Shown here piece by piece: positions 4,890 through 25,971 of a DNA stretch of 64,000 nucleotides (positions are counted from its first letter, which is position 1; each line of letters opens with the position of its first letter). Both the position numbers and the translations under genes were made by a program. The stretch comes from Planctomycetota bacterium (GTDB taxonomy: Bacteria; Planctomycetota; MHYJ01; WSZJ01; JACPWG01): contig JACPWG010000183.1 of NCBI GenBank assembly GCA_016197205.1, positions 62,001 to 126,000 on the forward strand, given 5' to 3'. Below the pieces are notes generated by a model. That model was not told where the DNA came from. It did no database searches and worked only from the letters and a program-made list of their open reading frames with translations.

Positions 4890-6590
4890 ATGTCCGGATG
4901 GGCGCTCGACCTCGGGACCACGAACACGGGCATGGCCCGTTGGGACGCCGCCGAGGCGCGGCCCCTCCTCGTCGAGCTGCCCGGCGTCTGCAGGAAGCCC
5001 GGCGGCGAGGACCCGCTCGAGGCGCCGCGCATGGTCCCCTCCGCCACCCACTTGCTGGAGGAGCTGGACTTCTTCTCCCGCATCGGCAAGTGGGGCTTCA
5101 TCAATCGCCGCTTCTTCCTCGGCCGGCACGCGCTCATCGGCCGGCCGGCCCTCGACCGCAACCGCCTGCGGATCTACCCGAGCTACCTCCCGGGCTTCAA
5201 GCCCTACCTCGCCACCGAGCCCCTCCGGCCGGTCGTCCGCGTCGGGAGCCGCTCCTACACCGCGCGGGACGTCGCGCAGACCTTTCTCCGCGAATTGCTC
5301 GCCGAAGTCAAGCGCGTCACCGGGGAACGGGTCCGCGAGCTGGCCGTCGCGGCGCCGGTGGACGCGTACGAGGGCTACCGCGCAGAGGTCCAGCGGATCG
5401 GAAAAAACCTCGGCATTCGGAAGATGCGCTTCGTGGACGAGCCGGTGGCCGCGGCCATGGGCTATGGACTGGGCACCGGCAAAGACCGCCTCGTCCTGGT
5501 CGCGGACTTCGGCGGCGGCACCTTCCACCTCGCCCTCATCGCGCTCGCGGCGCGCGAGGCCCAGGCGGGCCGTTGCCGCGTCGTCGCCAAGGTCGGCCGG
5601 CCGCTGGGGGGCGACCTCATCGACCGCTGGCTCATGGAGGACTTTTCCCGCCGCCTCGGCTATCAGCTTCGCGAGGACGCCACCGACGACGTGGTCGTCT
5701 TCTGGTATCGGCTCATGCTCGCCGAGGTGCGGCGCGTGAAGGAGGCCGTGTACTTCAAGGAGTCCGAAAGCCTGGGGCTCACGCCGCCGGACCACTACCG
5801 CCGCCTGGACGCTTCCGACCCGGGCCGCCCGGTGCGGCTCGAGGTCCGCCGCGACGACGTGGTCGAGGTGCTCAAAAAAAAGGGACTCTACGAAACCATC
5901 GAAGGGTGCCTCGGGGAGATCCACACCCAGGCCCGCACCCAGGGCGTGGACGCGGACAAGGTCGACGAGGTCCTGATGGTCGGCGGCTCCACCCTCCTCC
6001 CGGGCATCTACCCTCTCTTCGAGGCGCGTTTCGGCCGCAGCCGCGTGCGCGCCTGGCAGCCGTTCGAGGCGGTCGCGTACGGGGCCTGCGTCTACTCCGC
6101 GAACGCCTACACGCAGTCGGACTTCATCATCCATGACTATGCCTTCGTCACGCACGACGCCCAGACCCACAAGCCCGAGTACACGGTGATCGTCCCCCGC
6201 GGGACGCGCTTCCCGACGGGCGGCGACTTCTGGAAGCGCAAGCTCATCCCGACCTGCTCGCTCGGCGAACCGGAGACGATGTTCAAGCTCGTGATCGCCG
6301 AGATCGGGTCGAACTGGGGCGGCAACGAACGACACTTCGTCTGGGACGCCGCGGGCGCGCTCCACACCCTGGGCGCGCGGCGGGACGGCGACGAACGGAT
6401 CATCGTCCCGCTCAACGAATCGAATCCCGCCCTGGGCCGGCTGGACCCGCCCCACTCGCCGAGCGATCGGGCGCCGCGTCTCGAGATCTGCTTCGGCGTC
6501 AACGACGAGCGATGGCTCTGCGCGACGGTGCTCGATCTCAAGACACGCCGCTGGCTCATGCGCGAAGAGCCCGTGGTTCGGCTGCTGTAG
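4890..6590 (+). CDS. Hsp70-like (DnaK superfamily) ATPase, divergent
   Basis: This 566-residue protein begins with the phosphate-1 loop DLGTTNTGMA. It continues with FVDEPVAAAMGYG, the phosphate-2 loop VADFGGGTFHLALI and the adenosine motif LMVGGSTLLPGIYPLF. That is a complete actin-like nucleotide-binding domain of about 430 residues. The C-terminal 130 residues are shorter than the DnaK substrate domain plus lid, and there is no EEVD-like tail, so it is not canonical DnaK. The start at 4890 was chosen because the ATPase core begins immediately after it and GGAGG lies 12 bases upstream. The HEAT protein gene follows in the same direction. Client proteins are unknown. Confidence 0.88.
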   Translation: MSGWALDLGTTNTGMARWDAAEARPLLVELPGVCRKPGGEDPLEAPRMVPSATHLLEELDFFSRIGKWGFINRRFFLGRHALIGRPALDRNRLRIYPSYLPGFKPYLATEPLRPVVRVGSRSYTARDVAQTFLRELLAEVKRVTGERVRELAVAAPVDAYEGYRAEVQRIGKNLGIRKMRFVDEPVAAAMGYGLGTGKDRLVLVADFGGGTFHLALIALAAREAQAGRCRVVAKVGRPLGGDLIDRWLMEDFSRRLGYQLREDATDDVVVFWYRLMLAEVRRVKEAVYFKESESLGLTPPDHYRRLDASDPGRPVRLEVRRDDVVEVLKKKGLYETIEGCLGEIHTQARTQGVDADKVDEVLMVGGSTLLPGIYPLFEARFGRSRVRAWQPFEAVAYGACVYSANAYTQSDFIIHDYAFVTHDAQTHKPEYTVIVPRGTRFPTGGDFWKRKLIPTCSLGEPETMFKLVIAEIGSNWGGNERHFVWDAAGALHTLGARRDGDERIIVPLNESNPALGRLDPPHSPSDRAPRLEICFGVNDERWLCATVLDLKTRRWLMREEPVVRLL

Positions 6591-24459: not shown

Positions 24460-24639
24460 ACCCGACGGAGGGTTCGGCGCACGCGTGGGAGGGGGTGGGA
24501 CCGCGGCTTTCGCCGATTTCGCAAATTGGATGGGCCCCTGCGCGAAATTCGCGGTCGTGTCCCCTGGCTTGGCCGATTTCAAGTTCTTGGCCGCGGCGGA
24601 GCCGCGCTCTGGTTTTCACCCGAACGGAGGAACGTCGAG

Positions 24640-25971
24640 ATGCCCGTGGAAGCTGCCGCCCCGATCGACGCTCGCGCGATCCTGGAGAAGGAGGAGGCCT
24701 CGCTGGAGGAGCTTCTCTCGGTCCGCAAGCACGTCTTCGCCTCCCTCGAGCGCCGCACGGAGCTTGAGAAGAACCTCGAGAAGGTCGTGAAGGGCCTTTC
24801 GAGCGAGAACAAGCAGCAGGTTCGCCAGGGGGTGGGCCTGTGGCTCCTGGGCAAGCCCCAGGAGGCCATCGAGGAATTCCAGGACTGCCGCCTCTCGAAG
24901 GAAGGGCAGTTCTTTCTCGCGCTGGCGCACATGGAGCTGGACCAGCTCGAGGCCGCGGAGGAGCTCTTCGGGAAAGTCCGCGAGGCGGATCCTGCCGCGC
25001 TGCTCCCGCTGATCTATCTCTCCGAAGTGCGGATCAAGCGCGGCCGGGCGGCCGAGGCCCACGCCGAGCTGTCGAAGCTGAAGAAGGAGTTCGGCGGCCG
25101 GGCGGACTTCCACTACGCCTACGGTCTCGCGCTCGACATGCTGGGCCATTACGACGAGGCGGACGGGGAATACGAGAAGGCCCTGGAGGACGACCCGACG
25201 CACTCGAAGACGCTCTTTCGGCGCGCGTACAACTTGGACCTGCGCGGGCACGAGGAGGAGGCGCTTGCGCTGTACGAAGAGTTGCGGAAGGTGCGGCCGC
25301 CGTACGTGAGCGCGATGATCAACCTCGGCCTCATGTACGAGGACCGGTCGGAGTACGAGCAGGCCATCCAGTGCTACGAGGCGATCCTGGAGTCGTACCC
25401 GAACCACGGGCGGTCGCGGCTGTACTTGCGGGACGCGCAGGCCTCCCTCCACATGTACTACGACGAGGAGGCCAAGAAGAAAGAACACAAGATGCAGCAG
25501 CTTCTCTCGACGCCGATCAGCGAGCTGCAGCTTTCGATCCGGAGCCGGAACTGCCTGGCGAAGATCAACGTGCAGACCATGGGCGACCTCGTGAAGAAGA
25601 CGGAAGAGGACCTCATGGGCTGCAAGAACTTCGGCGAGACCTCGCTCCGGGAGATCAAGGAAGTGCTGCGGCAGCGCGGGCTGGCGCTGGCCTCGCCCGG
25701 CCAGGCCGCGATCGCGGGCAAGCCGCGGGCGTTCGGCGGCGCGGGCGGCATCGCGGGCAAGGAGGACGTGCTCTCGAAGGCGCTGACCGAGTTCGAGTGG
25801 TCGGCCCGCTGCAAGAAGTGCATCGAGAAGCTGGGCCTGGTGACGATGGGCGACCTCGCGCAGAAATCGGAGCCGGACCTGCTCGGCGTGAAGAACTTCG
25901 GCCTGACGTCGCTGAACGAGATCAAGCAGAAGCTGGCAGGGCTGGGTCTGGGGCTGCGCGTCGAAACGTAG
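24640..25971 (+). CDS. TPR protein with two RNA polymerase alpha C-terminal-like domains
   Basis: The 443-residue protein starts with a coiled coil (about 15-60). TPR-like helical repeats follow at about 65-275 (for example YAYGLALDMLGHYDEADGEY and MINLGLMYEDRSEYEQAIQC). Then come two copies of a helix-hairpin-helix module like RpoA-CTD. The first is at about 293-350 (SELQLSIRSRNCLAK ... LMGCKNFGETSLREIK), the second at about 383-440 (FEWSARCKKCIEKLG ... LLGVKNFGLTSLNEIK). The alpha-CTD contacts UP-element DNA and activators, so a transcription-linked adaptor role is plausible, but this is inference. It has its own GGAGG before the ATG at 24640. It is not RpoA: the N-terminal dimerisation domain is absent. 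Confidence 0.9.
   Translation: MPVEAAAPIDARAILEKEEASLEELLSVRKHVFASLERRTELEKNLEKVVKGLSSENKQQVRQGVGLWLLGKPQEAIEEFQDCRLSKEGQFFLALAHMELDQLEAAEELFGKVREADPAALLPLIYLSEVRIKRGRAAEAHAELSKLKKEFGGRADFHYAYGLALDMLGHYDEADGEYEKALEDDPTHSKTLFRRAYNLDLRGHEEEALALYEELRKVRPPYVSAMINLGLMYEDRSEYEQAIQCYEAILESYPNHGRSRLYLRDAQASLHMYYDEEAKKKEHKMQQLLSTPISELQLSIRSRNCLAKINVQTMGDLVKKTEEDLMGCKNFGETSLREIKEVLRQRGLALASPGQAAIAGKPRAFGGAGGIAGKEDVLSKALTEFEWSARCKKCIEKLGLVTMGDLAQKSEPDLLGVKNFGLTSLNEIKQKLAGLGLGLRVET

Follow-up and report, generated by a model that had tools for sequence, protein, structure and literature searches.

A probable transcription factor conserved across Planctomycetota carries two RNA polymerase α-CTDs on a TPR scaffold

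The C-terminal domain of the RNA polymerase α subunit (α-CTD) is the part of the enzyme that reads UP elements, and it is touched by many activators. One gene in the window analysed here (the whole stretch of 64,000 nucleotides, from a Planctomycetota bacterium) places two such domains on a chain that is not RpoA, raising the question of what this protein is and what its α-CTDs might do there.

The coding sequence (positions 24640..25971; this and all other features of the window lie on the + strand) runs from an ATG at 24640 to a stop codon at 25971 and encodes a protein of 443 aa. ATG occurs at or near the same aligned position in most of 37 relatives, supporting the start at 24640, and a probable ribosome-binding site, GGAGG (24626..24630), was read from the sequence 9 bases upstream of it. 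The Pfam model RNA_pol_A_CTD (PF03118) matched two stretches of the protein with an E-value of 7.4e-40 and 135 bits (cut-off 23.8); scored separately, the first (CTD1, 25477..25671, E 2e-23) and the second (CTD2, 25762..25938, E 2.5e-15) reached 85 and 59 bits. Several Pfam TPR models also scored above their cut-offs and tandem helix pairs are present, which identifies the chain as a TPR protein. No RpoA N-terminal domain was found in it with Pfam or NCBIfam. Of 38 NCBIfam matches, 25 were listed, and none of these reached its cut-off; the best were to rpoA models, matched through their C-terminal parts only and far below threshold. An initial annotation, made from the sequence alone, had described two RpoA-CTD modules fused to a TPR array with the RpoA N-terminal domain missing; both points were borne out, the former also by the predicted fold and by the relatives considered below.

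AlphaFold2 modelling of the full protein with 34 sequences of its own family gave a mean pLDDT of 90.8. The model comprises N-terminal helices to which no family could be assigned (residues 11–51, 24670..24792), a TPR array of six helix pairs with a capping helix, also delineated by Pfam TPR models and fold matches (residues 56–270, 24805..25449), a helix leading into CTD1, a disordered linker with pLDDT < 50 (residues 358–372, 25711..25755) and CTD2. The helix into CTD1 forms part of a conserved M-x-x-D-E connecting segment (residues 272–289, 25453..25506) defined from two alignments, and M272 and D275 are nearly invariant in alignments of relatives. The model does not fix how the domains lie relative to one another (pTM 0.63), and the inter-CTD spacing in relatives varies from 13 to 34 residues between the equivalents of residues 351 and 372. 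As a fold search with the full-length model listed only TPR proteins, the repeats accounting for the matches, the CTD pair was modelled without the TPRs (pLDDT 86) and searched alone. All 50 of the 50 matches listed for it were α-CTDs. CTD1 superposed on solved α-CTDs with a Z-score of 13.2 and 0.9 Å over 67 residues. For CTD2, the best match was an integrative RpoA–RpoC model (Z 13.1, 1.6 Å over 74 residues), followed by solved structures at Z 12.7 and 1.3 Å and at Z 12.6 and 1.1 Å. A structure closer to another HhH family, which the initial annotation had allowed for, did not emerge: the closest folds among the matches listed were α-CTDs. Judged by sequence and predicted fold, both domains are true α-CTDs. 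The E-values, the same architecture in 36 of 39 relatives and the confidence of the full-length model together exclude a chance origin.

In those 36 relatives, one ORF with two CTDs is nearly always accompanied by an RpoA-sized ORF with one CTD. Most of the 37 relatives that we aligned are 426–488 aa long, and the 130 residues from the last TPR through CTD1, which align without gaps among them, served as the query for a survey of the phylum. This query matched over nearly its full length, with E 2e-38 or better, in 144 of the 147 sampled Planctomycetota genomes. For the three genomes without a match (G053, G126 and G146), an assembly gap is the likelier cause, because each has a congener or a fellow member of its family that carries the gene. 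The gene is single-copy, one per genome, and is kept alongside RpoA. Its protein distances track the distances between the RpoA N-terminal parts (Mantel r 0.90, with 0 of 5000 permutations as high; 23 genomes), which indicates vertical inheritance. A domain tree of 75 columns set 40 CTD1 sequences apart from 40 CTD2 sequences with local support of 0.75–0.82; since E. coli RpoA sits on the CTD1 side, the tree does not tell the RpoA ancestor of the CTDs. The assignment to Planctomycetota follows from hydrazine synthase alpha, encoded in 5 of 6 tested genomes of one family (f49): hydrazine synthase is the anammox enzyme, and to our knowledge anammox is confined to this phylum. Planctomycete-specific PSD1 matched neither the genome of the window nor the controls and was uninformative as a phylum marker.

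The protein is phylum-wide, and this near-universality, which the initial annotation did not include, is the more important point; specificity to the phylum does not follow, the sister PVC phyla lying outside the sampled genomes. Across 41 genomes of a Clostridia-group phylum, that of an Oscillospiraceae genome discussed below, the query found only RpoA-sized frames, matched over query positions 50–130, plus one unrelated AAA fusion, which was also the only find of a protein-pattern search of genome contigs. Plasmid and phage collections yielded no TPR fusion, their matches being only RpoA α-CTDs or small CTD proteins. We found no paper on the family in open-access full texts, whose coverage is incomplete; domain databases may well already list the architecture. 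Within the family, the protein of a single-contig anammox-family genome (G100, locus L111) stops soon after CTD1 and is missing CTD2, another anammox-family member (G128, L110) retains the TPRs and CTD1 with a degenerate CTD2, and part of the TPR array of a third genome (G024, L055) fails to align. CTD1 is therefore the most constant part.

To compare surfaces, we used the 265, 261 and 287 determinants of E. coli RpoA, with residue lists from the E. coli literature and E. coli numbering throughout; 37 proteins of the family were set against 23 RpoA proteins of the phylum. In CTD1, the arginine equivalent to R265 (R301, 25540-25542) is invariant (37/37), as is G296 (37/37), with E302 in 35/37, S299 in 34/37 and N268 and C269 in 29/37 each. 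In CTD2, R265 (R390, 25807-25809) and E302 are each kept in 36/37, G296 in 35/37 and S299 in 33/37; N268 occurs in 0/37, its position being Lys in the protein of the window and Lys or Arg in 26/37. The comparison at the 265 determinant suggested by the initial annotation thus came out nearly complete for CTD1 and in part only for CTD2, where R265 stands and N268 does not. The same annotation had named the loss of all DNA- and sigma-contacting residues as an outcome that would speak against its reading; instead, the DNA-contacting residues are kept. Position 267 is basic in 37/37 CTD1 and 32/37 CTD2 domains, compared with 2/23 RpoA proteins of the phylum, and position 297, Lys or Arg in 22/23 of these RpoA proteins, is Glu or Asp in 24/37 CTD1 domains. 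K298 is replaced by Thr in most of both CTDs, a change that is not special to the fusion because RpoA of the phylum has Thr too (22/23). In a permutation test over all positions, buried ones included and phylogeny ignored, the 265 surface was conserved above the domain average (P 0.006 for CTD1 and 0.003 for CTD2); part of the conservation of G296 may be structural. R265 and N268 are published DNA contacts of the α-CTD (PMC11434276), and in Thermus, where some DNA-binding residues of the α-CTD are not conserved, UP-element stimulation is absent (PMC5511352). Judged by these contacts and the Thermus case, CTD1 looks DNA-competent and CTD2 altered: the residues speak for DNA binding in the former and for a changed DNA surface in the latter.

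The sigma-facing surface shows a different distribution. Position 259 is acidic in 37/37 CTD1 and 30/37 CTD2 domains, and position 261 in 15/37 and 31/37, respectively. In E. coli, 259 and 261 face sigma region 4, with D259/E261 contacting R603 of sigma70 (PMC5511352). On these counts, an acidic patch facing sigma would be retained chiefly in CTD2. Neither the 261 nor the 287 surface was conserved above the domain average in either CTD in the permutation test on the 37 proteins.

The genome of the window contains only two α-CTD matches, both in the TPR-CTD protein, and neither an RpoA N-terminal domain nor ribosomal protein S11 was found in its 91%-complete assembly. Loss of the CTD from this organism's RpoA was considered and rejected, as the assembly holds no RpoA at all, S11 is missing too and the RpoA proteins of relatives carry a normal CTD. 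With RpoA and S11 both missing, an assembly gap is likelier than CTD loss, and the ribosomal-protein region was probably not assembled. A GAF/HD-domain gene lies upstream of the TPR-CTD gene in this genome. In further lineages, it is followed directly by a prepilin peptidase gene at 11 loci and by ruvA at 7; 9 loci have an EF-G-like gene close by. Gene calling in the neighbourhoods was crude and located the TPR-CTD gene at 34 of the 37 loci. As no stable operon partner or neighbour conserved across the phylum was seen in the 37 loci analysed, the neighbourhood is of little help on function.

Compared with the α-CTD of RpoA, the domains are alike in fold (Z ~13, 0.9–1.6 Å) and in DNA-contacting residues, of which CTD1 has nearly the full set and CTD2 a part. 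The TPR-CTD protein differs in having two CTDs per chain on a TPR scaffold, in the missing N268 of CTD2, in its basic 267 and in the acidic 297 of most CTD1 domains; lacking the N-terminal domain, it cannot enter the core enzyme as an α subunit. We consider it probably an overlooked phylum-wide transcription factor. More specifically, sequence and model give about even weight to a core Planctomycetota transcription cofactor, scaffolded by TPRs, that would bind promoter DNA and possibly also sigma region 4 in the manner of an α-CTD. In sequence and model, the TPR superhelix continues through the connecting helix into a CTD1 with a nearly whole minor-groove (265) surface, from which the flexible linker leads to a diverged CTD2 where R265 and an acidic 261-like patch persist. 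CTD1 would bind A/T-rich minor grooves at or near promoters, as the α-CTD of RpoA does, CTD2 could make a second DNA contact or touch sigma region 4, and the TPR array could grip a protein partner, be it an activator or some component of RNA polymerase, with an effect on transcription initiation. At a set of promoters, the extra pair of α-CTDs, supplied in trans, might thereby recruit or stabilise the polymerase or be brought in next to it. In favour of such a cofactor we count the true α-CTDs, the near-universal vertical inheritance beside RpoA, the kept 265 surface, the gain of a basic 267 and the acidic 259/261 of most CTD2 domains; against it stand the acidic 297 in 24/37 CTD1 domains, the loss of N268 from all CTD2 domains, the lost or degenerate CTD2 of some anammox-family genomes and the absence of a conserved transcription-linked neighbour. 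A stronger version, which we put forward tentatively and regard as doubtful, is a phylum-defining basal factor that delivers extra α-CTDs in trans by means of its TPRs; to recognise promoters, the polymerase of the phylum would then rely on an accessory part that standard models of the bacterial enzyme do not include. A pair of α-CTDs on a separate protein, its DNA-contacting arginine retained throughout nearly the entire phylum, would imply that the E. coli and Bacillus models lack an element of promoter recognition in Planctomycetota. The protein offers a concrete single-copy gene for study in the tractable Planctopirus limnophila.

The same evidence bears on other roles. If the CTDs were minor-groove modules acting away from promoters, with the TPRs bridging proteins to the chromosome, a nucleoid or general DNA scaffold would account for the DNA surface kept in both CTDs, the extra basic residue, activator- and sigma-facing surfaces conserved no more than average and the lack of a transcription neighbour; we think this unlikely, since the protein is single-copy with only two DNA modules and DNA binding alone does not require the acidic 259/261 patch of most CTD2 domains. 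The DNA-contacting residues that CTD1 shares with RpoA, in the same genomes, would also suit a decoy or brake that competes with RpoA α-CTDs for UP elements, sigma region 4 or activators and lowers transcription from strong promoters. Near-universal, long-term conservation together with a TPR array exceeds the needs of a plain competitor, however, and the activator-facing 287 surface shows no special conservation, making such a role quite improbable.

We hold it equally improbable that the α-CTD fold has been reused to hold protein partners with DNA left unbound: the Lys-to-Glu/Asp change at 297 in most CTD1 domains, the loss of N268 from CTD2 and the loss or degeneration of CTD2 in some lineages point that way, whereas R265 points to DNA, being invariant in CTD1, kept in 36/37 CTD2 domains and accompanied by a basic residue gained beside it. 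The HhH-like fold and the ruvA gene that directly follows at 7 of the analysed loci hint at a factor for DNA repair or recombination, but prepilin peptidase takes that place in other lineages and, among the matches listed, the CTDs match α-CTDs and not repair HhH domains; this role is very improbable indeed.

Bacterial TPR proteins such as MamA share the TPR superhelix, but they are without an α-CTD and match in the repeats only, under curated cut-offs. α-CTDs outside RpoA occur in the Oscillospiraceae CTD-AAA ATPase and in small proteins of viral contigs, and weak matches came from BREX PglW and from an actinobacterial-type RpoC model; unlike the TPR-CTD protein, these have other partner domains and mostly one CTD, none was seen phylum-wide, and their homology to it is limited to the CTD. 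The Oscillospiraceae protein (L032:5185-7032, +) is 616 aa long and combines an α-CTD with an AAA ATPase and a lid domain, with rpoA on the same contig. A 1503-residue open frame in another genome (G037, L072:3568-8076, −) has one further α-CTD match (E 2e-9) in addition to those of RpoA and the TPR-CTD protein. Among IMG/VR viral contigs, L075, L076 and L078 encode stand-alone α-CTDs of ~75 aa, the first two with the RARKC and NFGVTSL forms that characterise the family's CTD2. Other IMG/VR entries encode a small α-CTD protein with a long C-terminal part that has no Pfam match (L077), a small protein with two CTD-like stretches (L088) and a CTD after an apparent helix-turn-helix part (L092). 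In L081 (IMG/VR), a 190-aa ORF around 6001-6162 fuses sigma-70 region 4 (PF04545, E 8e-12) to an α-CTD (E 1e-18), two parts that are in mutual contact in RNA polymerase.
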